Part shown: piece by piece, positions 6,594 to 19,664 of the stretch
Layout: the number at the start of each line of letters is the position of its first letter
Numbering within the stretch: position 1 is the first letter of the stretch
DNA from: Filimonas lacunae
GTDB taxonomy: Bacteria > Bacteroidota > Bacteroidia > Chitinophagales > Chitinophagaceae
DNA: 64,000 bases
Assembly (NCBI RefSeq): GCF_002355595.1
Contig: NZ_AP017422.1
Span: forward strand, 6,700,823-6,764,822
Direction of reading: 5' to 3'
Notes under the pieces: generated by a model
The model's database searches: none
What the model saw: only the letters and a program-made list of their open reading frames with translations
Told to the model about the DNA's origin: nothing
Made by a program: the position numbers and the translations under genes

Positions 6594-7652
6594 TTATACC
6601 AGACTATTCTCATCAATTTTATTTTTCTGAGCCATAAACGGCTCATGATGCCTTTCCAGAAATTGCTTTTTAGAGTCTTTATAACTGGTAACCGCTCCTA
6701 TGCTTTTTAAGGTACGGATATAGCACCAGGCCAGATCCAGCTGGTAGGGCAGGAAACCGGAGCGCGCACTGGAAGGAAACAAATGGTGATTATTATGCCA
6801 CTCGCCGGCAACATAGCCCGGCCAAAGCTGGTTGATGGAATTGTCTTCGCGGTTAAAATCAGTTCCGTCTTTTTGTTTTTCTTTATCTCCTTTAGCATGG
6901 CCTTCATAGTTAAAGGTTCTTACACCTACTGCCCAAAAAAAGGCGCCGCCAAACAAAGCACAGGCAAGCCCGTGTCCACCTATGAAATAAAAAGTAGTAT
7001 ACCAGAAGCCCCAATTCAATAGCCAGTGCATAATACTTTGCAAAGGACAGGCAATGGAACCCCATTTCACATATCTTTTATAGCTATTGCTTTTTACACC
7101 TGTATGTTCCATCAATCGCACCACACGATCGTAGTCGGTTTCATCTAACGCTCTGGATATAGGCTGATGATTAACGTCTGCCAGGAAACAATACAAAAAA
7201 CCGCCCGTAGCATTATAGGGATCGCCTGGCTGATCTGACTTGGCATGATGCACATGATGCGATATCACATAAATCTCTTCCGGGATAATTTTAAGAGAAA
7301 GATTGCGTGTAATAAAACGCCAGAAATTATTTCTAAAAGTGTAGGCCTGGTGGGTACAATACCGGTGATGCCAGATAGTACCGTGTGTGCCCATTAATAC
7401 CATACTGTACAGGAAGCCTGCGATAAAGAAAGGCCATGAGAAATGGTAACAGATAAATAATACAAAAAAGGGCAGCAGCGCCGCCACTTTCATCCAGCTA
7501 AAAAACGAAAGCCAGTTTTTTTTATTTTTAAAGATATTCAATCTTGAAAAAAATTCTGACAGCAATTGCTTGTTAGTGGGAGTAATGAGCGCACCGGAGG
7601 CATCCTTCCAGCCATAGGAAGGACTTTCCAGCACATGATCTAAGAAGGCCAT
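6594..7652 (-). CDS. Membrane fatty acid desaturase (acyl-CoA/acyl-lipid type)
   Basis: A 352-residue integral membrane di-iron desaturase. All three histidine boxes are present: HHRYCTH (H96-x4-H101), HHVHH (H132-H136) and EWHNNHH (H286-H290), with hydrophobic segments before and between them (about 55-90 and 200-245). Such enzymes put a cis double bond into acyl chains using O2. It stands alone, with a 125-bp upstream gap and its own terminator, unlike the second, shorter desaturase gene at 18.8-19.5 kb that heads a lipid operon. Position specificity cannot be read from the sequence. Confidence 0.92.
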   Translation of the reverse strand: MAFLDHVLESPSYGWKDASGALITPTNKQLLSEFFSRLNIFKNKKNWLSFFSWMKVAALLPFFVLFICYHFSWPFFIAGFLYSMVLMGTHGTIWHHRYCTHQAYTFRNNFWRFITRNLSLKIIPEEIYVISHHVHHAKSDQPGDPYNATGGFLYCFLADVNHQPISRALDETDYDRVVRLMEHTGVKSNSYKRYVKWGSIACPLQSIMHWLLNWGFWYTTFYFIGGHGLACALFGGAFFWAVGVRTFNYEGHAKGDKEKQKDGTDFNREDNSINQLWPGYVAGEWHNNHHLFPSSARSGFLPYQLDLAWCYIRTLKSIGAVTSYKDSKKQFLERHHEPFMAQKNKIDENSLV

Positions 7653-7777
7653 GGGGAACTGTTGGGGGATGATGAATATTGGTTATAAATTCAGTGTACT
7701 GCTACACCCATACAAGATAGGGTATTTTTATACAACTAAAGTGCTAATGTTTCGCCAACGGCATCCCCCCAACCCGT

Positions 7778-8152
7778 TTAGATATAAAACTCCACCAGGG
7801 AACGGAAGTAGGCATCGTCCCAACCTTCTACAATATCATCATATTCGCTGTCGGGAATATTAGAATGGCGCACTTCCACCGAAGTGCCTTGCTTATGCGG
7901 ATGCAATTTAATAGTCACAATGGAAGGCTCTTCCTGGTCAAAATACCACTGCTGCACAATCTTCTTTCCTTCTTCAAATTCCAGGTTTTTGCCCACAATA
8001 CTTTCATCCCACAACGCAAACTCCGAATCAGGCTCTGTGCTCATTACCGCTGGCTCGCCCGTCCATAACTGTATGGTTGCAGGATTGGTTAAAGCCACAT
8101 AAACTTCTTCCGGTTCTGCCGGCAGGATATAGTATTTTTTAAAATCTTTCAT
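7778..8152 (-). CDS. SRPBCC/AHSA1-like domain protein
   Basis: A 124-residue soluble protein of the START/Bet v1-like fold seen in the Hsp90 ATPase activator homologue family. Features include the opening 'YYILPAEPEEVYVALTNPATIQLWTG', a central acidic stretch and the final helix 'GWDDAYFRSLVEFYI'. These folds hold a hydrophobic ligand pocket. The gene starts 11 bp after the stop of the C39 ABC transporter and is probably the last gene of the peptide export operon. Whether it serves the peptide system (for example immunity or peptide handling) or is only co-transcribed is not known. Confidence 0.82.
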   Translation of the reverse strand: MKDFKKYYILPAEPEEVYVALTNPATIQLWTGEPAVMSTEPDSEFALWDESIVGKNLEFEEGKKIVQQWYFDQEEPSIVTIKLHPHKQGTSVEVRHSNIPDSEYDDIVEGWDDAYFRSLVEFYI

Positions 8153-8163
8153 ACGAATAAAGG

Positions 8164-10380
8164 CTATTGCGGCGAAGATAAATCTATTTTAGAGAGACGT
8201 TGCTGCCTTATTTGCGCTATCATAGGAAACTGCTGTTCCCACATGGTATAGTAAACAGTGCCTGGATGTAGTAGTGTTCCATGGCTGCCCTGCTCTATTA
8301 TTTTGCCCTCATGCATTACCAGTATATTATCTGCCTGCACCACCGAGCTTAACCGGTGCGCTATCAGTATCACCGTTTTGCCCGCAGTGCCCAATTGCCG
8401 TATACACTGTTGAATATGCAGCTCCGATTGCGAATCCAGTGCAGAAGTAGCTTCGTCCAGTATTAATATTTCCGGGTTACGATACAGCGCCCGGGCAATA
8501 GCCAGCCTTTGCCGCTGCCCGCCCGATAAGCTGGCCCCGTTTTCGCCAAGGTAAGTACCCAGCCCATTCGGTAACCGCTCAATCATTTCCAATATACCTA
8601 CCGCCTTACACACGGTTAACAACCGGGGCAGGTCTGGCTCATATTCACCCACCGCAATGTTTTCAATCACATTACCGGCAAACAAATCTATTTTCTGTGG
8701 CACTACCGACACAATGCTTCGCAGGCTACCCGGGCTAATGTAACGGATATCCGTGTCGCCTATGTAAATATGTCCCGACTGCAACGGATACATATGTTGC
8801 AGCAAAGAAAGCAACGTGGTTTTACCCGATCCACTCTCCCCTATTACTGCCGTTACCTTCCCTTTAGGTATAGTAAGTTGCAGACCATCAAAAACGTTTA
8901 CGCGCGATCCATACCGGAAGTGTACATCCTTAAACACAATATCCCCCACCATTTCCCTGGTTAACGTAATGGTTTGCCCTTCCGACTCCTTTTCCAGGTC
9001 CATAATCTCAAACAAGCGGTCTGCCGCAATAAAAGCATCCTGCATGGTTTTATTCATGCCTATTAACGACACCACCGGCGAAGTAAAATAACCGATGATG
9101 GCATAAAACGATAGTAGTTCCCCCGGTGTAATGCTATTGCTCAATACAAAGGAAGTGCCTACCCACAACAATAACACGGTAAACAACGAGTTGATAAACT
9201 GGCTTACGTTACCCGTCCACAAACCATTAGTGGCACTTTTAAACACAGTACGCAGCATTTTAATAAAACGGTCTTCCGTTTTCATATTGGCATACTCTTC
9301 CAGCCCAAAACGTTTAATGGTGCCTGCTGCGTTCACCGACTCCACCAATTGCGCTTCCAACTCAGCGCTGTTCTCCATCAGCTTTCGCTGTGTATGCTTA
9401 TTGGCTTTATTGGCATAGTAATACACTAAGGCATATAAAGGCACTATGCCCAGCATTAACATCGCCAGCTTCCAGTAAGAGGTGAACATCAAACCAAACG
9501 AAAAGAAAAGGATGAAAATATTCACCGCTATGCTAATGAGCACATCGTTGATAAACACACGAATTTTAACAGCATCATTCATGCGGGAAATAATTTCACC
9601 CACCCGCATGGTATCAAAAAACTGTTGGGGCAAGCGTAACAGATGTTTATAATATCCCAGTATTAAACGGGCATCTATTTGCTGCCCCGTTTTTACCGTT
9701 AAAATGGTTTTTACATGATTGATAAAAAATTGCAGTAACAAAATCACCACCATCACCATTCCCATCAGGTTCAGCAATTTTCTATTGCCATCAGGCATTA
9801 CATTATCTACAATCTTCTGCAAAAAGATAGCGGTAGATAAACCCAGCAAGGTATACACTACCGCCCCCAGCAACACCTGCATCATCACCGCACGGTGCGG
9901 CTGCATCAGATATAAAAAGCGACTGAATACCGACACTTTATTGTCACCTTTTTCAAACGCCGCCCCTGGTGCCAGCAACACCAGCACGCCGGTCCATTTT
10001 TTTTGAAAAGCGTCTGTCTCCCACACCTCCAGCCTGCCCTCAAAAGGGTCCATTACGGTAACGCCTTTTGGGGAAACGGCATATACTACCACATAATGGC
10101 TAATGCGCTCGTGCACTACCACATGTGCTATCACAGGCAACGGCAATTGCTGCAGGTTTTCCATATCAGCCTTCACCGCCTTGGCCGAAAAACCTAAACG
10201 GGAAGCGGCTTCCATCAATCCTAGCACATTGGTTCCTTTCTGATCGGTAGAAGCATACTGCCTTATTCTGGCCACAGGCATCTTCAGTCCATACCAGGTA
10301 GCGACAGATGCCAGGCAAGCAGCACCACAATCTGTAATATCCCGTTGCTTTACTATTGTTTTTTTGAGGGCACGTTTCAT
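8164..10380 (-). CDS. C39-peptidase ABC exporter for a double-glycine peptide
   Basis: A 738-residue peptidase-containing ABC transporter that cleaves double-glycine leaders and exports the mature peptide. The N-terminal C39 domain (1-135) has Q12, C18 in 'DITDCGAAC', H95 in 'ISHYVVV' and D111 in 'VMDPFEG', the complete catalytic set. A six-helix membrane domain covers about 165-450. The nucleotide-binding domain has Walker A GESGSGKT (514-521), the signature LSGGQ (618-622), Walker B ILILDE (638-643) and the switch histidine H675. Its start overlaps the stop of the HlyD gene by 4 bp (ATGA type), indicating translational coupling. The substrate is probably the peptide encoded at 11620-11862. 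Confidence 0.95.
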   Translation of the reverse strand: MKRALKKTIVKQRDITDCGAACLASVATWYGLKMPVARIRQYASTDQKGTNVLGLMEAASRLGFSAKAVKADMENLQQLPLPVIAHVVVHERISHYVVVYAVSPKGVTVMDPFEGRLEVWETDAFQKKWTGVLVLLAPGAAFEKGDNKVSVFSRFLYLMQPHRAVMMQVLLGAVVYTLLGLSTAIFLQKIVDNVMPDGNRKLLNLMGMVMVVILLLQFFINHVKTILTVKTGQQIDARLILGYYKHLLRLPQQFFDTMRVGEIISRMNDAVKIRVFINDVLISIAVNIFILFFSFGLMFTSYWKLAMLMLGIVPLYALVYYYANKANKHTQRKLMENSAELEAQLVESVNAAGTIKRFGLEEYANMKTEDRFIKMLRTVFKSATNGLWTGNVSQFINSLFTVLLLWVGTSFVLSNSITPGELLSFYAIIGYFTSPVVSLIGMNKTMQDAFIAADRLFEIMDLEKESEGQTITLTREMVGDIVFKDVHFRYGSRVNVFDGLQLTIPKGKVTAVIGESGSGKTTLLSLLQHMYPLQSGHIYIGDTDIRYISPGSLRSIVSVVPQKIDLFAGNVIENIAVGEYEPDLPRLLTVCKAVGILEMIERLPNGLGTYLGENGASLSGGQRQRLAIARALYRNPEILILDEATSALDSQSELHIQQCIRQLGTAGKTVILIAHRLSSVVQADNILVMHEGKIIEQGSHGTLLHPGTVYYTMWEQQFPMIAQIRQQRLSKIDLSSPQ

Positions 10381-11531
10381 GCGGCATTATTAGGGTTTAA
10401 CCAATCATCAATTTTATCGTACAACAGCTGATACAGCGTACGGCTGGTAATTAAAAATCGGGCATGCATAGTCATGCCCTTTTTTATCTGCGCCTTGTAG
10501 CCATTGCGCAACTGCAGGGCACTATTGCCTATAACGCAACGCACTTTAAAATAAGGTGGCTGCCCTTCGGCCGTAAACACATCTTCCGAAACGGACTGCA
10601 CCGTACCGGTAAGCATGCCCCAGCTATTGTAATCAAAAGCATCTACCTGCATACGCACCGGCGTACCCTTTTTCAACAACCCAATATCGGTGGTGCTTAC
10701 ATACGCTTCGGCAATCAATCCGTTATCAGGCGTTATCTCACCCAACAACTCTCCGGCCGACACAAAGCTTCCTTTTTGTATGCCCTTCAATTGCTGCACA
10801 TAGCCACTCACGGGCGCATTCACTGTGTATAGCCCCTTCTCCTGCGCAGTTACCTGCCGGCTCGCCTGCAACTCCTGCAGTTGCAGGCGCAACTGCATCA
10901 TATCGCCATGCCATTGACTAAACTGTTGTTGCTTTATAAGCGACAGCTCGCCTTCGGCTGCATTTTTTTCATATTCATATTTTTCAAACTCTGCCGAGCT
11001 TACCACATTACCTTTGTATAAAGAGGAATAGCGGTTATAGGTTCTGCTGGCAGTATTGAGTTTTACACGAGCATCTGTAATACGCTGCTGATAAAGGCTG
11101 TATTGCTGACGGTATACGCGTGTTTGCAAAGGCGCTTCCGAACTGCCGGTAATAATCTCCAAGTCGTGTAACTGGGCCTGCAATTCGGCATAATGATTAT
11201 TTTCCAGGGCACTTTTTTCATTCACCTGCCGGGCATCTACTTTAAACAAGGGCTGCCCGGCACTAACCGGTGCATTTTCGGCCACGGATACCGATTCTAC
11301 CACACCACTGACCGAAGCACGGATCTCTGTTCGCTCCGTTACCGAACGAAAAGCACCGGCGCTTCTTACAGAGATATCTACTTTAATAAAGAATAAAGAA
11401 ACAAATGCGATGAGTATAGCAGCTAATACAACCAGGTAAATAGCTTTGGTTTGGGGGTGATAATCGTGAAAGTGTTTTTCAACACTGTTTTCGATAACCC
11501 CTGCGGGAAATATTTTCGTTTGCACAGGCAT
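10377..11531 (-). CDS. HlyD-family membrane fusion protein of the peptide exporter
   Basis: A 384-residue periplasmic adaptor with a short cytoplasmic N-terminus and one transmembrane helix (about 29-48). A biotinyl-lipoyl-like half motif follows ('RASVSGVVESVSVAENAPVSAGQPLFKVD', about 88-116, split by strands). Next is a long coiled-coil hairpin (about 120-220), the second lipoyl half ('NAPVSGYVQQLKGIQKGSFV') and a beta-barrel with the conserved 'AYVSTTDIGLLKKGTPVRMQVDAF' region. Such adaptors link an inner-membrane ABC exporter to an outer-membrane TolC-like channel. No TolC gene is in the window, so the channel must be encoded elsewhere. It lies between the peptide gene and the ABC transporter. 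Confidence 0.93.
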   Translation of the reverse strand: MPVQTKIFPAGVIENSVEKHFHDYHPQTKAIYLVVLAAILIAFVSLFFIKVDISVRSAGAFRSVTERTEIRASVSGVVESVSVAENAPVSAGQPLFKVDARQVNEKSALENNHYAELQAQLHDLEIITGSSEAPLQTRVYRQQYSLYQQRITDARVKLNTASRTYNRYSSLYKGNVVSSAEFEKYEYEKNAAEGELSLIKQQQFSQWHGDMMQLRLQLQELQASRQVTAQEKGLYTVNAPVSGYVQQLKGIQKGSFVSAGELLGEITPDNGLIAEAYVSTTDIGLLKKGTPVRMQVDAFDYNSWGMLTGTVQSVSEDVFTAEGQPPYFKVRCVIGNSALQLRNGYKAQIKKGMTMHARFLITSRTLYQLLYDKIDDWLNPNNAA

Positions 11532-11571
11532 CGTGTAGAAGTAAGCGAATAAGGGAGAGAAGAAATGAACA

Positions 11572-11602
11572 AAAAAGGATGACCTTCAAGATCATCCTTT
11601 TT
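11572..11602 (-). terminator. Attenuating terminator between peptide gene and exporter genes
   Basis: 11-bp arms (AAAAAGGATGA at 11572-11582 with TCATCCTTTTT at 11592-11602) and a 9-nt loop. On the minus strand the stem ends in six Ts. It lies 18 bp after the peptide stop codon and 41 bp before the HlyD start, so most transcripts would stop after the peptide and only read-through would make the exporter, a usual way to keep peptide in excess. Confidence 0.82.
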
Positions 11603-11619
11603 ATGCCAATGCCTATGGC

Positions 11620-11862
11620 TTACAGGCCACCCAGCAAACCGCCCAGGTTCAGGCCGCTTAACAGGTTGCCTAAGTTCAGGCTACCTAAGCCAAGATCGCT
11701 TAACGCATCCACAACAGTACCTAAACCAGCATTGATTTCGGTTGACTGTGTGTTGCCGTTTGAGGTAGTAGTAAGTTTAATGTTCAGGTTCAACAGGCCG
11801 CTTAAACCAGCGCCACCATTTGTGTTTACCATTTCATCAAAAGTCAGTTCTTGCATTTTCAT
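11620..11862 (-). CDS. Double-glycine-leader secreted peptide (bacteriocin- or pheromone-like), 80 aa
   Basis: An 80-residue precursor whose first 17 residues form a leader ending in GG (MKMQELTFDEMVNTNGG). Relative to the cut after G17 it has L at -12, E at -8, hydrophobic M at -7 and G-G at -2/-1, the C39-cleaved leader pattern; only -4 (T) is not hydrophobic. The predicted 63-residue mature peptide has no cysteine, one lysine and three acidic residues, and is rich in Gly, Leu, Asn and Thr. Its end carries a 9-residue tandem repeat (LNLGNLLSG, LNLGGLLGG). It is directly upstream of HlyD and C39-ABC genes. No modification enzyme or obvious immunity gene is adjacent. Antibacterial action is not shown; signalling or a surface role is also possible. 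Confidence 0.85.
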   Translation of the reverse strand: MKMQELTFDEMVNTNGGAGLSGLLNLNIKLTTTSNGNTQSTEINAGLGTVVDALSDLGLGSLNLGNLLSGLNLGGLLGGL

Positions 11863-12092
11863 AATTACCAGGTATTAAAGAAATAGAATAGCGCCTACTC
11901 TTTTATTTGTAAGGCTTTTCGGCATACACCTCCTGGTTCTTCAATAAAGGACAAGCTGGATCTTAAATGCATTAATGCTTTTTGTAATTACACGGCCAAG
12001 TTCGACAAACATTTTACCAAATCAAAGCCTAATGGTTTTTATTTTAAAAACCAATCCAAAAGCATTTCGTTTACGTAAAGCAACAAAAACAT

Positions 12093-12126
12093 TAAAAAAA
12101 TGGCATGCATCATAAATGCACGCCAT
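12093..12126 (-). terminator. Terminator of the lipid modification operon
   Basis: 11-bp arms (12100-12110 with 12116-12126, one mismatch that is an A-C on one strand) around a 5-nt loop. On the minus strand the stem ends GCCAT followed by seven Ts. It sits 34 bp beyond the stop of the last gene of the leftward lipid operon. Confidence 0.8.
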
Positions 12127-12160
12127 ATGAGTCAGTTTGTCACTGATATAAAATATTTTT

Positions 12161-13405
12161 TTAACGTGTCAGTGTATTAGGGCGCACATATACTAATTGC
12201 ATAACATTTATATTACGCATAGCGAAAGCTGCTTCGCAATATGAAAAATAATAATTCCATTTTCTTACGAATGAATCACTAAATCCTAATAGCCTTACCT
12301 GCTGCAACTGCTTATTAAAACGATCGCACCATATGGCCAATGTTGCAGCATAATCCAATCCCATATCTTTCACATCTACTAATGTTAAATCACCTGTATT
12401 GTTCATAGCCTTATTAATAGCTCCTATAGAAGGCAATAAAGATCCGGGGAAAATATGCTTCTGTATCCAGTCTACCCCATTGCGCAACTGATCAAAACGC
12501 GAATCAGGACAGGTAATAGCCTGAATAGCCAGTATGCCATTACGTTTTAATAAGGCATAACAGGTTTTGCAATATTCTTCCAGGTATTCTGCTCCTACAG
12601 CTTCTATCATTTCAATAGACACTATCTTATCAAAACTGCCTTTTATATATCTGTAATCCTGCAACAGTACCTCTATCCTATCTTCCAGGCCTGCTTCTTT
12701 TATCTTTTCCACCGCATAACGATGCTGCTCTTCCGAAATAGTAACAGTAGTTACACGGCACCCGTAATGTTTTGCGATATAAATAGCATTACCACCCCAG
12801 CCGCTGCCTATTTCCAATACATGATCGGCAGGTTGCAAATGTAATTGCCTGCACAAACGATCGTATTTGGCATATTGCCCTTCTTCCAGGCTCATTCCCT
12901 CCTTATAAAAGTAAGCAGAAGAATAAGTCATCGTTTTATCCAGGAACAAAGCAAAAAAATCATTATTTAAATCGTAATGTGCTGCAATATTCTTTTTTGA
13001 TCCAATAATGCTATTGCCCCGCCTGCTATGCAACAGGCGGTTCCATATTTTCAACCCATTCAATAACACCGACTTTACATGACTACCCGATACAGAAGGT
13101 GCATGATCAATGTTCAGTAAAAACCATTGCAATACATGGGTGATATTATCGGTATTCCACTCCCCCACTTCGTATGCTTCACCAAAACCAATATCACCAT
13201 ACAATACGCAACGCTTAAAAAAATTCTTATGCACAATGGAAATACTGGCAGTTACCCCTCCTTCTCCATTACCCAGTGTAATAGTTTCGCCGGAAGGCAT
13301 GGTGATATACAACCGGCCTTTATTCATTTTTGCTAATAAGGAAAGCAATATTTTTTCGTAAAAACTTCTCTGGGTCAGGATACTGGCCAACGCTGTAGAC
13401 GACAT
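12161..13405 (-). CDS. SAM-dependent methyltransferase, cyclopropane-fatty-acid-synthase family (copy 1)
   Basis: Start taken at the ATG at 13405 (MSSTALASILTQ), giving 414 residues. A longer frame to 13531 would overlap the upstream DUF1365 gene by about 98 bp. The N-terminal part (1-110) is the lipid-binding domain typical of CFA synthases. The core has 'AAHYDLNNDFFALFLDKTMTYSSAYF' in two adjoining motifs and the SAM-binding 'VLEIGSGWGG', followed by 'FDKIVSIEMIEAVGAEY'. Family enzymes add a methylene or methyl group across or next to double bonds of membrane acyl chains. It is last in an eight-gene operon, after FAD oxidoreductase and DUF1365 genes, an association conserved in many bacteria. 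Exact product (cyclopropane, methyl branch or furan precursor) is unknown. Confidence 0.9.
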   Translation of the reverse strand: MSSTALASILTQRSFYEKILLSLLAKMNKGRLYITMPSGETITLGNGEGGVTASISIVHKNFFKRCVLYGDIGFGEAYEVGEWNTDNITHVLQWFLLNIDHAPSVSGSHVKSVLLNGLKIWNRLLHSRRGNSIIGSKKNIAAHYDLNNDFFALFLDKTMTYSSAYFYKEGMSLEEGQYAKYDRLCRQLHLQPADHVLEIGSGWGGNAIYIAKHYGCRVTTVTISEEQHRYAVEKIKEAGLEDRIEVLLQDYRYIKGSFDKIVSIEMIEAVGAEYLEEYCKTCYALLKRNGILAIQAITCPDSRFDQLRNGVDWIQKHIFPGSLLPSIGAINKAMNNTGDLTLVDVKDMGLDYAATLAIWCDRFNKQLQQVRLLGFSDSFVRKWNYYFSYCEAAFAMRNINVMQLVYVRPNTLTR

Positions 13406-13433
13406 ACTGATAAGATGCTGATGATGAAATTGT

Positions 13434-14231
13434 TTATCGGGGTATATGTTTTTTATATACGTTTTTCTGTAAATGCTGGTTTGCGGCCTTGGAATGCCAG
13501 GGTATTTTTTTACGCCATAGCAATAAAGCATTCCAAAGTATCAGCAGCATCACTTTCCCCGTAATAAAAGGAAAACGGATGGTATACCATAACAACACAC
13601 GGTTGCCCAGCGGCACTTTATCCCCCATAAGTTGAGTGATAAAAAAACGCTGCCCGTTTTTATAGTCATCTATGGAAATCTCCAGCTTACGGCCGGGTAT
13701 ACGCAGTTGAAAATGAAAATCAACATCATGATCTATAAAAGGCGATACGTAGAAATATTTGGCAGTGCGCAAAGTAAACACCCCTTTATCCAATTGATCT
13801 GGACCCAGCAAATAAGGTTTCATTTCCCGGAATGTATTGCTCACCTCCGCCACACAACATAAAGGCATACCACTACTGTCAAAACAGTAGTAAAAAGAAA
13901 CAGGATTAAAATTGTAACCCAATACATTCAGGTTGGTAAGCAACATAATCTTTCCCTCCCCCAGTTCCATTCCGTTTTCATGCAGCCATGCAGTAATATG
14001 TTCGCGGGTAGTACGGGTAGTATCGGGTTTATCGGCCGGCAATTGCAAATGTTCTTTTTCGCGAAAACTGAAAAAATTAAACCGGTTGTGGCTTATCATC
14101 CAATATTTACGGCACAGCTCAGGCAACTCATCCAGATCGATATAAAACATATACACGTTATAACTGAACCAGTGCTTTTGAGGTTGCAACCGGTGATGCA
14201 TTACCGAAGCAGTATACAAACAGCTATTCAT
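13434..14231 (-). CDS. DUF1365 family protein
   Basis: A 265-residue protein beginning MNSCLYTASVMHHRLQPQKHW, with 'FSYNVYMFYIDLDEL', 'NLNVLGYNFNPVSFYYCFD' and 'HVDF'-like aromatic strands typical of DUF1365. Members have no assigned reaction but are almost always encoded between an FAD-dependent oxidoreductase and a CFA-synthase-like methyltransferase, exactly as here. Homologous sets are reported in the RpoE-ChrR regulon of Rhodobacter sphaeroides, where neighbours are linked to unusual fatty acids. The start overlaps the upstream oxidoreductase gene by 8 bp, suggesting coupled translation. Confidence 0.88.
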   Translation of the reverse strand: MNSCLYTASVMHHRLQPQKHWFSYNVYMFYIDLDELPELCRKYWMISHNRFNFFSFREKEHLQLPADKPDTTRTTREHITAWLHENGMELGEGKIMLLTNLNVLGYNFNPVSFYYCFDSSGMPLCCVAEVSNTFREMKPYLLGPDQLDKGVFTLRTAKYFYVSPFIDHDVDFHFQLRIPGRKLEISIDDYKNGQRFFITQLMGDKVPLGNRVLLWYTIRFPFITGKVMLLILWNALLLWRKKIPWHSKAANQHLQKNVYKKHIPR

Positions 14232-15477
14232 GCTTCAACAGTTTGCTGAGTGATACTGCACTGGCATAAGCATCTTCATGAAACCCATAGCGGAAATAAC
14301 TGCCACAATAATATAAAGGTCCATCTGCATTAAGTCCCGGCAATTCCTTTTGCGCCATCACAGCAGGCACATCAAACAACGGATGTTCATAATCTATTTC
14401 CCGGATAATTTTGCCGGCATCAATACTACCTGGCAAAGCATTAATGGATACAAAATAATTACGGGTATCCGACACCTGCTGCAAACGATTCATCCAGTAA
14501 ATAGTGGTAGGCACCTGTTTGCCATCCCGCTCTTCTACCCGGTAATTCCAACTGCTCCACACACGCCTGTTCAAAGGCATAATGCTTTCATCAGTATGCA
14601 CAGTAGCCTTATTATACTGGTATTGAAAGCGGCTAAGCAGATATTGCTCGCGCGGGGTAGGATTATCCAGCAGGCGAAGGGCCTGATCGGCATGACAGGC
14701 AAATATAACCTTATCAAAGGTGCTGGTGAGGCCATTGGCCGTTTGCACCAGGGCCTTGCCCTGCATCCGTTTTACATTTATCACCGCATTGTTCAGTTGA
14801 ATACGATGCCGGAATGGCTCTATTAACAGTTTCCGGTAAGCCTGGCTTCCATTGTGTAAAGTATACCACTGGTGTTGTGTATGTAAACCTAAGAATCCGT
14901 GGTTTTTAAAAAACCGAATCAGCGTGTGCGCCGGAAAATCCAGCATCAGCTCCATAGGCGTACTCCACACAGCCGAACTCATAGGTACCAGGTACTTCCA
15001 CAACATGTCTTTTCCATACCCGCGTTCTTCTATAAAATCCTTCAGTGAATACTGTTCATAGGCAGGGTTATCCAGTATGCCTATCGCCTCTTTATTAAAC
15101 CGGGTTATTTGCCAGAGCATTTTTATAAAAGAACCATTTACCAGGTTCCTGCGTTGGGCAAACAAACCATTCAGTCCCGAACCACAATATTCCAGTCTGG
15201 TAGGCACATGTTGTACACTGAAAGACATGTCTGTTTTTTTTACAGGCGCCTGAATATCTTCAAACAAACCACAAAGGTGCGGATAGGTGGCATAATTAAA
15301 TACCATAAAACCCGTGTCTATATAAACAGGCCTGCCATTCTCTTCTACCGAAATAGTATTTGTGTGCCCACCCACATAATCATTCTGCTCAAACAGGGTA
15401 ATATCGTATTTGTGTTGCAGGTGATGTGCACATCCCATGCCTGCAATACCTGTTCCTATAATAGCTAACTTTTCCAT
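14224..15477 (-). CDS. FAD-dependent oxidoreductase (amine-oxidase-like) of the lipid operon
   Basis: A 417-residue flavoprotein with the N-terminal dinucleotide-binding motif 'LAIIGTGIAGMGCAHHL' (GxGxxG at 8-13) and the adjoining 'ITLFEQNDYVGGHTNTI' that binds the FAD ribose. A 'VYIDTGFMVFN' strand follows, and the usual C-terminal 'LYYCGSYFRYGFHEDAYASAVS' FAD-binding stretch is split over two strands. It belongs to the amine oxidase/phytoene desaturase-like superfamily group that travels with DUF1365 and CFA-like methyltransferases. It probably oxidises or isomerises an acyl chain in the membrane; the substrate is inferred. It starts 10 bp after the esterase gene's stop. Confidence 0.88.
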   Translation of the reverse strand: MEKLAIIGTGIAGMGCAHHLQHKYDITLFEQNDYVGGHTNTISVEENGRPVYIDTGFMVFNYATYPHLCGLFEDIQAPVKKTDMSFSVQHVPTRLEYCGSGLNGLFAQRRNLVNGSFIKMLWQITRFNKEAIGILDNPAYEQYSLKDFIEERGYGKDMLWKYLVPMSSAVWSTPMELMLDFPAHTLIRFFKNHGFLGLHTQHQWYTLHNGSQAYRKLLIEPFRHRIQLNNAVINVKRMQGKALVQTANGLTSTFDKVIFACHADQALRLLDNPTPREQYLLSRFQYQYNKATVHTDESIMPLNRRVWSSWNYRVEERDGKQVPTTIYWMNRLQQVSDTRNYFVSINALPGSIDAGKIIREIDYEHPLFDVPAVMAQKELPGLNADGPLYYCGSYFRYGFHEDAYASAVSLSKLLKHE

Positions 15478-15487
15478 TCCAATGGGG

Positions 15488-16618
15488 TTATTGGGTTACT
15501 GAGTGAATAAAATGTTCTACCGCATAAGCAGTTAATTGCCCTGCCGGACTGTTGATATTATAATCGCACCCATGCGTGGCATAAGGCATTCGTAAGAAAT
15601 AATTACGTACACCACAAGCGGTAAGCCTGTTGGATAAATGCACACTATGCACAGAAGACACCAGCGGATCTATATCACCATGTATTAATAAAGTAGGGGG
15701 CGACTTCCTGTTCACATATTCACAGGCCGATGCTTTTTTAAACACCTCCGGCACCTGTGTATACACCCCGCCAAAATATCCTTTGTAAATGCTATTAGTA
15801 TTTAATACCCAATCACTCACTTTCACCCGCCCACCCCAAACCATATCAGCTGGTGCATATAAATCTACCACCCCCTTAATGCTGTTGTCAGGCAAACTGT
15901 AAGCAGCCACCAGCGCCACCTGCCCGCCGGCCGAACGTCCCAGCAGCACTATATTATTGGTATCGGCATGTAAAACTGCTGCCTGCTTTTTTATATAGGC
16001 TATTACCTTCCTGGTATCTTCTACAGGTGCCGGAAACTGGTATTGCGGTGCCAGCCGGTAATTGATAGCTGCTACATTATAGCCCCTGTTTGCCAGGAAG
16101 CTGTTTAGCGCGGGCAACTGTTTGCTATCACCGCTTTCCCACGAACCACCATGAATCACAATCACTACGGGAGAAGGCTCTTTTGTATAAGAAGGATAAT
16201 AATCAAACGTAAGCACCTTATCACCGGCATTGGCATAAACAATGGTACTGGCAGATACCGGGGTAATGCTTAACCCCGTAAACATACGGATGCCACTAAA
16301 AGGCTGTGCTTTTGTTGCATTCAGCTGCTTATCCGGAAAAACAGCAGTTAGCGCATCAGCAATCCCCTTTCCTGCATAACAGGCGTTTGCTATGGGCAAA
16401 GCATACAGGCAAAAAGCCATACCATTCATGCATAAAGCCACCAGGTGGCATTTTCCTCCGGTAAATGCCCAGGTAGCTACAACAGCGCTCAACAACATAA
16501 AAACATAGGGATAACAGGTAACCACCACCGATAGCTGCCATAAAAAGTGAGTGGGCGCCTTCACTACTACCAGCAGCGACAACAACAATAGCACTACTGC
16601 AATCAGCATTCGCAGCAT
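15488..16618 (-). CDS. Membrane-anchored alpha/beta-hydrolase (esterase/lipase, HGG type)
   Basis: A 376-residue protein with three hydrophobic segments in the first 80 residues, then an alpha/beta-hydrolase domain of the hormone-sensitive-lipase-like group. It has the oxyanion-hole HGG (156-158), the nucleophile in GRSAGG (S229), the acid in 'IHGDIDPL' (D315 or D317) and H349 in 'PYATHG'. The catalytic domain should lie on the outer face of the inner membrane. Within a lipid operon it may release or transfer an acyl group. It begins 3 bp after the stop of the upstream methyltransferase, so the two are co-transcribed. Confidence 0.87.
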   Translation of the reverse strand: MLRMLIAVVLLLLSLLVVVKAPTHFLWQLSVVVTCYPYVFMLLSAVVATWAFTGGKCHLVALCMNGMAFCLYALPIANACYAGKGIADALTAVFPDKQLNATKAQPFSGIRMFTGLSITPVSASTIVYANAGDKVLTFDYYPSYTKEPSPVVIVIHGGSWESGDSKQLPALNSFLANRGYNVAAINYRLAPQYQFPAPVEDTRKVIAYIKKQAAVLHADTNNIVLLGRSAGGQVALVAAYSLPDNSIKGVVDLYAPADMVWGGRVKVSDWVLNTNSIYKGYFGGVYTQVPEVFKKASACEYVNRKSPPTLLIHGDIDPLVSSVHSVHLSNRLTACGVRNYFLRMPYATHGCDYNINSPAGQLTAYAVEHFIHSVTQ

Positions 16619-16621
16619 AGT

Positions 16622-17650
16622 TTATTTTTTTTGAAACAGGTAATGACTCACCATCCACTCCTGCCCGTTGTTGTATTTCCATAATTCCGAGCAGCTCATA
16701 AAAAAAATGCGCCAATACACCCACCACTTTACCGCATTCTTTTTACCGTAGGTTTCTTTAAAAAGCGGCATGATGTCCGCTTTATGCCTGTCCATATTTT
16801 GCAACCAGGCTTCTGCCGTTTTACTATAATGCAAACCGCTTACATGCCAGTGGTCCTGGATAGATACATGTTGATTGAAATATAAAAGCAGGTGATCACT
16901 GGGCATAATGCCACCGGTAAAAAAATACTTGCTCATCCAGTCGCTCTCATCCATTACCTCAAACTTGTAGGCATAACTTTTATGCGTAAAAATGTGCACA
17001 AACAACTTGCCTTCCGGCTTTAGAAATGAAGCCACCTTCTGCATCAGCATTTCATAGTTACGCATGTGTTCAAACATTTCCACCGATACCACCCGATCAA
17101 ACCGCTGTTCGGTAGTAAACAGGTTCATGTCTGCCGTAACTACTGTAAGGTTGGTAATACCTTGTAAACGCGCCTGCTCATCTATATGCATTTTCTGAGT
17201 ACGCGAATTAGACACTACCGTAAAGCTGCTTTGCGGATAACGTACAGCCATAAACAACGACAACGATCCCCAGCCACAGCCCAGCTCCAGCACCTCTTGT
17301 CCGTTCTGCAGTTGCGCACGATCGCAGGTTAACAGCAACATGTCTTTTTCTGAAGTATGAATATCTGTTACACCTTCTTTCCAATACCCGCTGCTGTACT
17401 TTAAATGTGGCCCCAGGCAATATTGATAAAAACGCGTAGGCACTTCATAATGCTGCTCATTGGCATCTGTTGTATTCACTGCAATAGGCGAGTCTTTCAA
17501 CTCCTGTATCAACTGTAGCAAATGCTGTTGCTGTACCTCAGTGCATCCTTTGTTTTCATTCTGTAAACGCTGTTTCAATAATCGGCGTATGCCAGTGCGG
17601 ATAAGGGAGTCAGGGAAATAATCTTTTTCAAGTAATGAGTTATACCACAT
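16622..17650 (-). CDS. SAM-dependent methyltransferase, cyclopropane-synthase-like (copy 2)
   Basis: A 342-residue second CFA-family enzyme, lacking the long N-terminal lipid-binding domain of copy 1. Landmarks are 'YEVPTRFYQYCLGPHLKYSSGYW', spread over two motifs, and the SAM-binding loop 'VLELGCGWGS', followed by 'FDRVVSVEMFEHMRNY' and a C-terminal helical part with 'FFMSCSELWKY', characteristic of the short CFA-like group found with DUF1295 and FAD-oxidoreductase genes. Two different CFA-like enzymes in one operon suggest successive or alternative methyl transfers. The upstream DUF1295 gene ends 42 bp before it. Confidence 0.9.
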   Translation of the reverse strand: MWYNSLLEKDYFPDSLIRTGIRRLLKQRLQNENKGCTEVQQQHLLQLIQELKDSPIAVNTTDANEQHYEVPTRFYQYCLGPHLKYSSGYWKEGVTDIHTSEKDMLLLTCDRAQLQNGQEVLELGCGWGSLSLFMAVRYPQSSFTVVSNSRTQKMHIDEQARLQGITNLTVVTADMNLFTTEQRFDRVVSVEMFEHMRNYEMLMQKVASFLKPEGKLFVHIFTHKSYAYKFEVMDESDWMSKYFFTGGIMPSDHLLLYFNQHVSIQDHWHVSGLHYSKTAEAWLQNMDRHKADIMPLFKETYGKKNAVKWWVYWRIFFMSCSELWKYNNGQEWMVSHYLFQKK

Positions 17651-17692
17651 AATTCCTGGTTCAGGTATAGCATATACGTGAACAGGAGAAGG

Positions 17693-18481
17693 TTAGTTTT
17701 TCTTGCGCCAGGGAATAAATACGCTGGTAGTTTGCTGATATTGACGATAAGCATCGCCTTTGCTTCGGAGGTTTTGTTCTTCGGTAAGAGGAATACCGGT
17801 TACTTTAAACAAGAGATAACCGATAGATACAGGACTGATAAAAGCCAACCATCCATAAGGGCTGCCTATAGCCATTACAAACACTCCTATCCATATCAAT
17901 AACTGAAAAAAGTAATTAGGATGACGGGAGTAATTCCAAAGTCCTTTGTTACATACTTTACCTTTATTGGCCGGGTTCTTTTTAAAAGCTGCCAGCTGTG
18001 CATCAGCCACCGTTTCGCCCACAATTGCCAGCAGCCAGATAGCCGCTCCTGCATATTCGGTAAAAAACATGCCGGCTTTCACATTCGCTGCCATAATAAA
18101 CCAGGGAATTGCCAACCAGATATTACTTACTGCCTGCGCCTGAAAAAACAGGAAGAATTTCAGCAGTAACTGGTTCCGCCATTCGTAGCGTAACTGTTTA
18201 TAACGTCCCTCTTCTTCGCCCAGGTGCCATAAAACCCGCTTGCCTAAATGCCAGGTTAAACGCAGGCTCCATAAACAGGCCAGGCCACTCACCCATAGTT
18301 TACGCACCCCATCGCCAGGGGCCAGCCACCAGATTAATACACCTATAATGGTAAAGTTAAAAGCCCAGAACACATCCACTATACCGGCATTGGATATACG
18401 GGTTGCCCATATCCATACACATAACATTACACAGCAAACAGTTGCCAGGGAAATAAGAGCAGGAAAGTAAAAGGAATGCAT
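17693..18481 (-). CDS. DUF1295 membrane protein (steroid 5-alpha-reductase-like fold)
   Basis: A 262-residue polytopic protein with about six membrane helices. The C-terminal half contains 'GLWNYSRHPNYFFQLLIWIGVF' in two contiguous motifs and 'GIPLTEEQNLRSKGDAYRQYQQTTSVFIPW'-type DUF1295 ending. The RHPNY motif is shared with isoprenylcysteine methyltransferases and steroid reductases, which bind a nucleotide or SAM cofactor near the membrane. A role in reducing or modifying an acyl chain within this operon is a fair inference. It starts 3 bp after the stop of the DUF1475-like gene. Confidence 0.88.
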   Translation of the reverse strand: MHSFYFPALISLATVCCVMLCVWIWATRISNAGIVDVFWAFNFTIIGVLIWWLAPGDGVRKLWVSGLACLWSLRLTWHLGKRVLWHLGEEEGRYKQLRYEWRNQLLLKFFLFFQAQAVSNIWLAIPWFIMAANVKAGMFFTEYAGAAIWLLAIVGETVADAQLAAFKKNPANKGKVCNKGLWNYSRHPNYFFQLLIWIGVFVMAIGSPYGWLAFISPVSIGYLLFKVTGIPLTEEQNLRSKGDAYRQYQQTTSVFIPWRKKN

Positions 18482-18484
18482 AGG

Positions 18485-18817
18485 TTAGTTATTAGCGGCG
18501 AAGATATTTTTAACAGGCTCACCTGCTTTTAATTTAAACAGTTGCACCAACACGTAGGCACAGGTTCCAATACTGCCTAAAACCGCAAATAATACAATCC
18601 AGAAAATCTTTTGTAACAGGGAGGTTTCTTTATAACAAACCCAGGTACTTAGCACCAGCACGTTTGCGTAAAAATCCCAAAGGGTGGCGCGCATCCAGGG
18701 AATGCCTGCCAGGTAGTTCCATTCCTCAAACAAATTACTTTTCAGCGAAGTGTCAATAACCTGGTAACACATAAATAACAAAACGGCACTGAAAAGCAAT
18801 TTGAGAGAAGTTATCAT
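18485..18817 (-). CDS. DUF1475-like small membrane protein
   Basis: A 110-residue protein with three hydrophobic segments (about 3-20, 45-62 and 68-92). The middle has 'TLWDFYANVLVLSTWVCYKE' and then 'LGSIGTCAYVLVQLFKL', resembling DUF1475 as I know it. It lies between the desaturase and DUF1295 genes with 3-bp gaps on both sides, so it is firmly part of the lipid operon. It has no known activity; a small membrane subunit or scaffold is possible. Confidence 0.72.
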   Translation of the reverse strand: MITSLKLLFSAVLLFMCYQVIDTSLKSNLFEEWNYLAGIPWMRATLWDFYANVLVLSTWVCYKETSLLQKIFWIVLFAVLGSIGTCAYVLVQLFKLKAGEPVKNIFAANN

Positions 18818-18820
18818 ACT

Positions 18821-19546
18821 TTATCTTTTTATCTGGATAATCCGCATCCGGTCTAATAACACAATTACCGGATAGGTAGGATCAAACTCAAACCATTTTT
18901 TGGCAAAATTTAAACTGTTGGGGCTTTTATGGTGGTTATTCTGCATCAGTTCACCCATCAGAAAGATATCTACCGGTATCGTGTTTTTACTATGATCCTG
19001 GTTGTCGAAACTGGAATAACCATACTTATGACCGCACCAGTTTACAATAGCTCCATGTACGGGGCCCATGAAAAAGTGGATTGGTAATAATAAAAACATC
19101 CACCACTGGGTAGCAAAAAAGCAATAAAAGGCTACATAGCCCAGGCCAAACATAATACGCACGCTCCAGTAGTTGGTTATTTTATCCAGCAAAGGCCACT
19201 CGGGGTAATTGCCACGAAAAGCTTTATCCGGTTCTACTTTGTGTTTAGCGTAATTCAGATAAATGTCTTTGGTTTTCATGGTCATTTCCCACACATCTTT
19301 AAAAAAATGGGGAGAATGCGGGTCTTTTTCGGTGTCGCTATACGCATGGTGCATCCTGTGCATAATGGCATAGGCTCTTGGGTTTAAGAAAGAAGCCCCT
19401 TGGGTAAAAATGGTAAAGCCATAGAAAAAACGCTCCCAGAACTTGTTCATGGAGAACATCTTGTGCGATGCATATCGATGAAGGAAGAAGGTTTGACAGA
19501 AAAGGGATAAGAACCAATGTGCCAGAAAAAAAATGAGAATAGCCAT
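18821..19546 (-). CDS. Fatty acid desaturase heading the lipid modification operon
   Basis: The ATG at 19546 (MAILIFFLAHWFLSLF) gives 241 residues and is chosen over a GTG at 19588. Three histidine boxes are visible: HRYASH, HRMHH and QNNHH, the last followed by 'KSPNSLNFAKKWFEFDP', typical of the short acyl-CoA desaturase group. Hydrophobic segments surround them. As first gene of an eight-gene leftward operon it could make the double bond that the two CFA-like methyltransferases and the FAD enzyme then modify. It is distinct in length and boxes from the stand-alone desaturase gene at 6.6-7.7 kb. Confidence 0.9.
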   Translation of the reverse strand: MAILIFFLAHWFLSLFCQTFFLHRYASHKMFSMNKFWERFFYGFTIFTQGASFLNPRAYAIMHRMHHAYSDTEKDPHSPHFFKDVWEMTMKTKDIYLNYAKHKVEPDKAFRGNYPEWPLLDKITNYWSVRIMFGLGYVAFYCFFATQWWMFLLLPIHFFMGPVHGAIVNWCGHKYGYSSFDNQDHSKNTIPVDIFLMGELMQNNHHKSPNSLNFAKKWFEFDPTYPVIVLLDRMRIIQIKR

Positions 19547-19664
19547 AAAATCACAAATCTTTTTAATTACATAAATACTCCACGCCACAGCAAAGAGGGC
19601 CCGCGAAGATAATCTTTGCCAGCCGCTATACTGGCATCTATTTTTTTAACATATATATAATGCG

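Follow-up and report, generated by a model that had tools for sequence, protein, structure and literature searches.

A double-glycine peptide with a dedicated C39 exporter and a DUF805b RNA in Filimonas lacunae: a candidate antagonistic or surface peptide

Results

A three-gene peptide export unit flanked by an RNA element and a hairpin

A 64,000-nucleotide stretch of DNA from Filimonas lacunae (contig NZ_AP017422.1, positions 6,700,823 to 6,764,822; hereafter the window) carries a three-gene unit whose most likely function, judged from its sequence, is the production, trimming and export of a small acidic peptide rich in glycine and leucine. A sequence-only reading of this DNA had placed an 80-residue precursor with a double-glycine (GG) leader directly before an HlyD-type gene and a C39 ABC transporter gene, and this is the arrangement found on the minus strand. 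To it we add an RNA of the DUF805b family upstream of the precursor gene and a hairpin downstream of it, two features absent from that reading. The unit recurs in relatives with very different peptides, and its product is a candidate, open to experiment, for a new type of weapon or surface peptide of bacteria. In the order of transcription it runs from the DUF805b RNA (11932-11892) through the precursor gene (11862-11620), the hairpin (11602-11572) and hlyD (11531-10377) to the C39 ABC gene (10380-8164), the last two genes overlapping by 4 bases. Its features are as follows (G and L numbers are our handles for genomes and loci; G002 is another species of the same genus):

11892-11932, minus strand: DUF805b RNA (Rfam RF02914), an H-type pseudoknot in the 5' region, 3' end 29 nucleotides from the ATG; 34.3 bits
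11620-11862, minus strand: precursor gene, 80 amino acids; open reading frame with a 79% identical orthologue in G002 and mostly silent changes
11812-11862, minus strand: GG leader MKMQELTFDEMVNTNGG, 17 codons, predicted to be cut after G17; no replacement changes relative to G002
11623-11811, minus strand: predicted mature peptide, 63 amino acids (A18 to L80), read from the sequence; repeat insertions and deletions relative to G002
11572-11602, minus strand: 14-pair hairpin followed by a T run, in the gap between precursor and hlyD; putative intrinsic terminator or attenuator; similar stems at all eight core loci
10377-11531, minus strand: HlyD-type membrane fusion protein, 384 amino acids; Pfam HlyD_3, E 9.3e-24
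8164-10380, minus strand: C39 peptidase-containing ABC exporter (PCAT), 738 amino acids; Peptidase_C39 1.4e-34, TIGR01193 above cut-off

The precursor is a real gene, beyond chance, because G002 has an orthologue 79% identical to it (E 9.7e-26), again next to the hlyD and ABC genes of the unit, and because the codon changes between the two are predominantly silent. In the leader, 12 codons are identical, 5 differ silently and none is replaced, and in the mature part 21 are identical, 26 silent and 10 replaced, with insertions and deletions in the Leu/Gly repeats besides. The corresponding Nei-Gojobori distances for replacement (dN) and silent (dS) changes are a dN of 0 for the leader, a dN of 0.32 and a dS of 1.40 for the mature part, and a dN of 0.164 and a dS of 2.29 for the ABC gene; the leader is fixed, and the product constrained yet looser than the exporter. 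When 59 genomes, including its own, were searched with the precursor, four matched at E ≤ 0.1, convincingly only the own genome and G002; the matches in G009 and G040 (E 0.06-0.1) look like low complexity and were rejected.

The predicted 63-residue product had been described as anionic, free of cysteine and rich in Gly and Leu, and the computed values agree, with a charge of −2.2 at pH 7, no cysteine, 21% Gly and 29% Leu. The unmodified peptide has a calculated mass of 6091.8 and consists of a Gly/Leu start, an alternating strand-turn-strand stretch and C-terminal repeats of the LNLGG/LLGG type. An AlphaFold2 model of the precursor places strands at residues 26-34 and 37-45 (mean predicted local distance difference test, pLDDT, 54.4; predicted template modelling score, pTM, 0.27), and the modelled strand-turn-strand at 26-45 agrees with the alternating sequence at low confidence but proves nothing. 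Among curated families none matched the precursor above its cut-off, the best being the class IIb family TIGR03949 (lactobin A/cerein 7B; 15.4 against 21.5), which it resembles in the leader only (residues 4-20). The own genome, searched for leaders with TIGR01847, gave no match, and a Pfam DUF945 match on the precursor (E 0.081, below cut-off) was taken as chance.

The ABC protein matches Peptidase_C39 (1.4e-34), ABC_membrane and ABC_tran in Pfam and passes NCBIfam TIGR01193, the model for peptide cleavage/export ABC transporters (529.7 against a cut-off of 523.85). The catalytic residues Q12, C18, H95 and D111, earlier read as intact, are invariant across 17 aligned exporter sequences. The closest solved structure by sequence is that of the ABC-type bacteriocin transporter PCAT 4ry2 (query residues 6-717, E 7.7e-167), which is alike in its C39, membrane and ATPase domains; the substrate differs, and in the window the exporter has an HlyD partner. 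Peptide export as such is predicted with high confidence.

A constant leader on a changing product

The exporter was followed through 394 genomes sampled from the family, with matches at E ≤ 1e-200 in 41 of them. GG-leader peptide candidates, called by pattern and by eye, are present in 33 of 42 exporter loci (window not counted; L026 and L160 end at contig ends); among the 33, L176 is weak, and matches to SmpB (L044 and L156-L158) were discounted, as was another match in L158. Eight loci from four genera, with exporter identity of at least 63%, form the core set of this first survey (G000, which is the window, G002, G130, G292, G095, G173, G231 and G005). In all eight a precursor with a leader of the type MKxQELTxxEMxxxNGG stands directly before hlyD, seven leader columns (M1, E5, L6, E10, N15, G16 and G17) being invariant, and G292 has a second precursor of the same leader type further upstream. 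Three loci with exporters 64-66% identical (G446, G459 and G437) were fetched later as a test. With these, 10 of the 11 loci whose exporter is at least 63% identical, window included, have a precursor of this leader type directly before hlyD, so that homologous precursors beside such transporters, on which the sequence-only reading had staked its proposal, do exist in related genomes.

The products vary far more. In a shuffle test against the mature part of the window precursor, none of 2000 shuffles reached the score of G130 or of G459, so these alignments are demonstrable; both loci belong to one other genus, and their products share with that of the window the pattern LSGLL...TT..(N/D)G.T.ST..N.GLG. 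Shuffles reached the score 662 times in 2000 for G005, 1097 for G231, 1359 for G173, 270 for G292 and 223 for G446. Homology of all products in the clade is not supported by this test, these five loci being without demonstrable alignment. Four products (window, G002, G292 and G446) contain 21-38% Gly and 25-33% Leu, and the likeness of the window product to those of G292 and G446 may be one of composition only, because shuffles reach the score often. Cysteine occurs in three of the ten products computed (G095, G173 and G231).

A kept leader on a changed product, here seven invariant columns on mostly non-alignable products, is what would be expected of antagonistic peptides. The bacteriocin model TIGR01847 (cut-off 15.7) is passed by peptides of two exporter relatives, G130 (18.6) and G004 (L051; 17.4), and TIGR03949 by a peptide of G426 (30.5 against 21.5). 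Since the product changes on a fixed leader and exporter and has cousins of bacteriocin type, we favour antagonism as the more probable role over structure or signalling.

The same comparison bears on a second explanation, to which we give rather less credence and which we consider somewhat unlikely, namely that the product is a surface or matrix peptide that assembles outside as a film or fibre, or covers the cell surface, secreted in bulk and with no target cell. The Gly and Leu content of the four products just named, the differing number of repeat units in the window and G002, the alternation of polar and hydrophobic residues (by eye), the purifying selection within the genus, the lack of a shared immunity gene and the hairpin, which suggests peptide in excess of exporter, would all suit it. 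Against it, the products of G095, G173, G231 and G005 are short, contain cysteine or are less rich in Gly and Leu despite the same type of leader, RNA and exporter, and such varied products count against a surface peptide because a structural role should change less.

The earlier proposal of a new peptide system thus stands in part: the PCAT/HlyD pair is dedicated and the product atypically acidic, but there is no single conserved peptide and the export route is known. The exporter clade spans several Bacteroidota groups, and the GG peptides of its members are of many kinds, which is why the route itself is not new. Among the best 80 exporter loci listed, ten are orthologue-like (L059-L068), nine of which belong to Bacteroidota (among them Pedobacter, Tenacibaculum and Dyadobacter) and one to an Opitutae metagenome-assembled genome.

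The RNA and the hairpin on either side of the precursor gene

The RF02914 match in the window scores 34.3 bits (E 4.9e-7; gathering score 35.6), and a scan of the whole window with Rfam at gathering level listed no match. A search of 20 whole genomes placed an RF02914 match 21-36 nucleotides before the precursor ATG in all eight core loci, above the gathering score in G173 (46.5 bits), G095 (42.6), G292 (39.5) and G231 (36.3) and below it in G002 (28.3), G130 (26.5) and G005 (26.3) as in the window. RNA and precursor also occur together in the later loci G446 (41.7 bits) and G459 (29.3 bits), so that, where the exporter is at least 63% identical and the precursor immediately precedes hlyD, 10 of 10 loci have the RNA. 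None of eight loci from other exporter groups (L051, L159, L163, L045, L048, L049, L046 and L167) has the RNA at E ≤ 0.1, and among six further loci (L285-L290) it occurs in one, L286 of G426, 24 nucleotides before a different GG peptide, the one that passes TIGR03949. The pseudoknot and the position before a gene are those of the DUF805b family, which is named for DUF805 genes, whereas in the window it precedes a GG-peptide gene.

The window pseudoknot has stems of 5 and 3 pairs, with two of the five being G-U (hand count). Over 87 distinct RNA copies the 3-pair helix is complete in 79 (mean 53.9, largest 62 in 2000 shuffles), and its first pair varies among GC, AT, CG and TA; the other helix has at least 4 pairs in 66 of the 87 (mean 44.6, largest 56 in 300 shuffles). 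The predicted pseudoknot is supported on these copies.

Upstream of the RNA lie three 10-base palindromes, at 11969-11978 (GCATTAATGC), 11983-11992 (TGTAATTACA) and 12070-12079 (TTTACGTAAA), all of which recur in the upstream sequence of G002 and are possible regulator sites. The first two were not found in the 190 nucleotides upstream of the other six loci, and the third falls outside the stretch compared.

On the other side of the precursor gene, a scripted rule finds a stem of 12-17 pairs with a T run, 15-20 nucleotides past the precursor stop, in six of eight loci, and G095 and G173 have stems of like length by eye, without the T run. Hairpin scores in the six loci are 18 to 21, whereas of 1000 random sequences built after the intergenic DNA of the window, 9 reached a score of at least 12. 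The stems of the window and G002 differ by paired changes. The claim for this hairpin is made because of its stem length and its recurrence across loci and not from a terminator scan, in which terminator-like sites in 7600-12400 (9, against 5.1 expected with a standard deviation of 2.2) are weak evidence by themselves. It may act as a terminator or attenuator that yields more peptide than exporter.

Genes that do not accompany the unit

Open reading frames of at least 30 amino acids, in a region reaching 3.5 kb upstream and 2.5 kb downstream of the exporter gene, were compared among the eight core loci. Those recurring across genera are HlyD and the ABC protein (8 of 8), the peptide (7 of 8 by BLAST, that of G292 being too different) and frames overlapping hlyD and the ABC gene. 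No immunity gene, sensor, receptor or modification enzyme common to the eight loci emerged from this comparison, which would miss an immunity gene that the loci do not share. The missing shared immunity gene does not exclude a toxin, because bacteroidetocin regions are likewise without an obvious one.

A signalling peptide sensed by its own population, in the manner of the ComC/BlpC-type pheromones, is an explanation that we regard as quite unlikely. Pheromones with GG leaders do use the same kind of exporter, and three relatives' leaders (L051, G231), not that of the window, weakly resemble ComC/BlpC models, far below cut-off. Yet the eight loci have neither a sensor kinase nor a response regulator in common, and 63 residues with repeats are long for a pheromone.

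The sequence-only reading had noted that no modification enzyme accompanies the precursor, and indeed none is seen in the unit of the window and none recurs beside it in the eight loci. This argues against a modified peptide, on which a tailoring enzyme from another part of the genome would act before export, an explanation that we consider highly improbable. In its favour is a separate cluster of the own genome in which an RNA-led GG-type precursor stands with a radical-SAM/SPASM enzyme, a nitroreductase (by eye) and a C39 ABC gene of its own; that cluster, however, is served by its own exporter, and its leader differs.

This putative modified-peptide cluster (L243 2556-10373; G000:C1 about 1023555-1031372) comprises an RNA-led 66-residue GG-type precursor (L243 2617-2817), then genes for a nitroreductase, a flavoprotein and a radical-SAM/SPASM enzyme (by eye), a C39 ABC protein and an HlyD-like protein, and a precursor resembling it, likewise led by the RNA, is present in G002 (L258). 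The own genome (one contig of 7.81 Mb) contains four C39 matches in all, and a 72-residue Cys-rich GG-type peptide is encoded near two other C39 genes (L002 and L004) at L281 7402-7620, minus strand (G000:C1 about 462400).

Discussion

Proposed working of the unit

Our best explanation, put forward tentatively from the sequence comparisons, is that the unit produces a type I-secreted, unmodified, class II microcin-like antagonistic peptide in excess of its exporter. The genes, the intact exporter, the selection on precursor and leader, and the RNA and hairpin in eight core loci are read from the sequence; we infer that the genes form a single transcription unit and that cutting, export, excess expression and RNA control occur as follows. 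The DUF805b pseudoknot in the mRNA would control expression of the first gene, and the hairpin past the precursor stop would end or slow most transcripts before the exporter genes, leaving the precursor in excess. The C39 domain of the ABC protein would recognise the MKxQELTxxEMxxxNGG leader and cut after GG, and ABC protein and HlyD, joined by a TolC-type channel whose gene lies elsewhere, would export the 63-residue product in one step. There is no TolC-type outer-membrane channel in the unit of the window; a putative TolC-like protein (read by eye) is encoded 3' of the ABC gene in G005. Outside the cell the product would antagonise close relatives at an outer-membrane target by means of its alternating strand-turn-strand part and its Gly/Leu repeats, and no dedicated immunity protein would be needed, as reported for bacteroidetocins. 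Antagonism and its target are the least certain part of this explanation. BamA as the target would be an analogy with bacteroidetocins only, which act on BamA (PMC8546649).

Sequence does not decide between a toxin, a signal and a surface role, and our ranking of roles outside the cell (antagonism of relatives, then a self-assembling surface peptide, then signalling) is provisional. Several observations weigh against the antagonistic explanation or its parts. The Gly/Leu repeats equally suit a self-assembling surface peptide, and within the genus the mature part is under purifying and not diversifying selection (dN/dS about 0.23). All ten products computed are acidic, with charges of −1.2 to −7.2, and most bacteriocins are not. 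No immunity gene is shared among the eight loci, unlike in class II microcins, and the AlphaFold2 model is of low confidence (pLDDT 54). As for control, the RNA copy of the window falls just under the Rfam gathering score, the RNA of G292 precedes only the hlyD-adjacent precursor and not the second one, and a scan for sigma-70-type promoters (7600-12400) gave 10 sites against 10.3 expected, with no excess. G437 lacks both this precursor and the RNA, having a different GG peptide 3' of its exporter and a less similar HlyD.

Among known systems, class II microcins of the MccV type (PMC9746304) are like the unit of the window in having a GG precursor, a PCAT with its catalytic residues and a membrane fusion protein. 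The unit differs from them in having no immunity gene shared by eight loci, in its acidic, Gly/Leu-rich product, in the phylum, and in the DUF805b RNA and the hairpin. Bacteroidetocins, the class IIa-like peptides described in PMC6671954, share with the window a GG leader (15-16 residues in theirs, 17 in the window), a C39 ABC protein, an origin in Bacteroidetes and the lack of an obvious immunity protein, and their producers inhibit themselves. By that description, they contain at least two cysteines and are 35-50 residues long (42 in the first two), against 63 residues and no cysteine in the window, and their adjacent genes for a transmembrane protein and, mostly, a thiol oxidoreductase are both missing from the unit of the window, which has hlyD.

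GG peptides exported by PCATs are of a known kind, and it is the RNA leader on them that is unexpected. The open literature, as far as our search reached into it, yielded no description of the peptide family or of its link to DUF805b; the probable source of the RNA family (Weinberg and colleagues 2017), which may contain the link, lay outside the search. If antagonistic, the peptide would represent a further class, acidic, cysteine-free and apparently immunity-free, among the few peptide weapons known in Bacteroidota; if structural, a surface peptide exported by way of a GG leader. In either role, further members can be sought by the parts that stay constant while the product changes, namely leader, exporter, RNA and hairpin.

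DUF805b RNAs beyond the locus

From the RF02914 search of 20 genomes, 95 of the matches listed, mostly at E ≤ 1e-4, were followed to 91 distinct genes, after dropping L206 (no open reading frame), L212 and L213 (weak matches) and the duplicate of the G173 core locus (L216). Matches at E ≤ 1 occur in 20 of 20 genomes and also in 14 of 14 control genomes (none of the 14 over the cut-off), so that weak matches are attributable to chance. The genes 3' of the RNA, among the matches listed, comprise 62 with a Sec-like start, 8 GG precursors of the exporter clade and 21 others, among them L243, which encodes the own genome's second GG-type precursor, and 69 of the 91 encode at most 150 amino acids. 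Sec-like starts are found in 156 of 465 control frames from exporter flanks and in 141 of the 355 that have at least 120 amino acids (Fisher p 1.7e-9 and 1.7e-6), with the classifier being a crude hydrophobicity rule and the control frames not size-matched.

Over the phylum, RF02914 at E ≤ 1e-6 is present in at least 93 of 395 genomes, against none of 14 control genomes. A sample of 40 of these genomes, with one match each chosen for spread among the matches listed (L291-L330), gave 39 RNA-led genes with an open reading frame, which by rules divide into 22 Sec-like, 1 GG and 16 other. By models, the 16 include a bacteriocin-like leader (L294), a radical-SAM-associated ribosomally synthesised and post-translationally modified peptide (RiPP; L304), a DUF805 protein (L297) and a rhodopsin (L301). 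Elsewhere, too, DUF805b RNAs often stand before small exported proteins; not all RNA-led genes encode exported peptides.

Beyond DUF805 genes, the RNA-led genes include short proteins with Sec signals (some near DUF6520, below cut-off), lipoproteins and GG peptides, and in L313 a RiPP precursor resembling the NHLP leader follows the RNA (39.3 bits against a cut-off of 50.9).

It is conceivable, and in our judgement doubtful, that DUF805b is a shared control element of a Bacteroidota programme of small exported peptides (GG, RiPP-type, Sec and lipoproteins) tied to one cellular state, of which the peptide of the window would be the GG-exported member in its clade. Were this so, the function of the peptide and the purpose of the orphan RNA could be solved together. 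The DUF805b link in any case supplies an orphan RNA family with a concrete and testable set of target genes.

Neighbouring genes and other peptides

The unit is flanked downstream by an AHSA1 gene and a desaturase gene and upstream by a cyclopropane synthase gene. The AHSA1 gene (7778-8152) was rejected as a member of the unit or an immunity gene, since of the eight loci no more than two, the window and G002, have it 3' of the ABC gene; it is also found in other surroundings in G001, of the same genus and with no exporter match at E ≤ 1e-200. Between the precursor and a desaturase-like gene, the window holds at 12161-19588 a cyclopropane synthase (CMAS), DUF1365 and further lipid-type enzymes (by eye), and since a desaturase-like gene adjoins the precursor in G002, this lipid-type cluster has been inserted or lost.

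Other loci of the exporter survey offer further peptides. At L046 3043-5054 and L167 4589-4822 (reversed-locus coordinates), GG peptides have a hydrophobic product start ending in a lipobox-like LLAGC or LVGGC, which suggests GG cleavage followed by possible lipidation. Another exporter group (L047, L051, L052, L159, L161-L165 and L168) has sets of two or three GG peptides on the opposite strand, of about 56-63 amino acids and the LPIVGPILG type, plus longer Gly/Ala-rich ones, which are possible multi-peptide bacteriocins. An XRE-like regulator (by eye) lies 3' of the exporter in seven loci (L045, L051, L052, L161, L163, L164 and L168), and a group II intron RNA match (RF02001, 87.4 bits) at L163 9760-9924, minus strand, lies less than 300 bases from a GG-peptide gene of G281.

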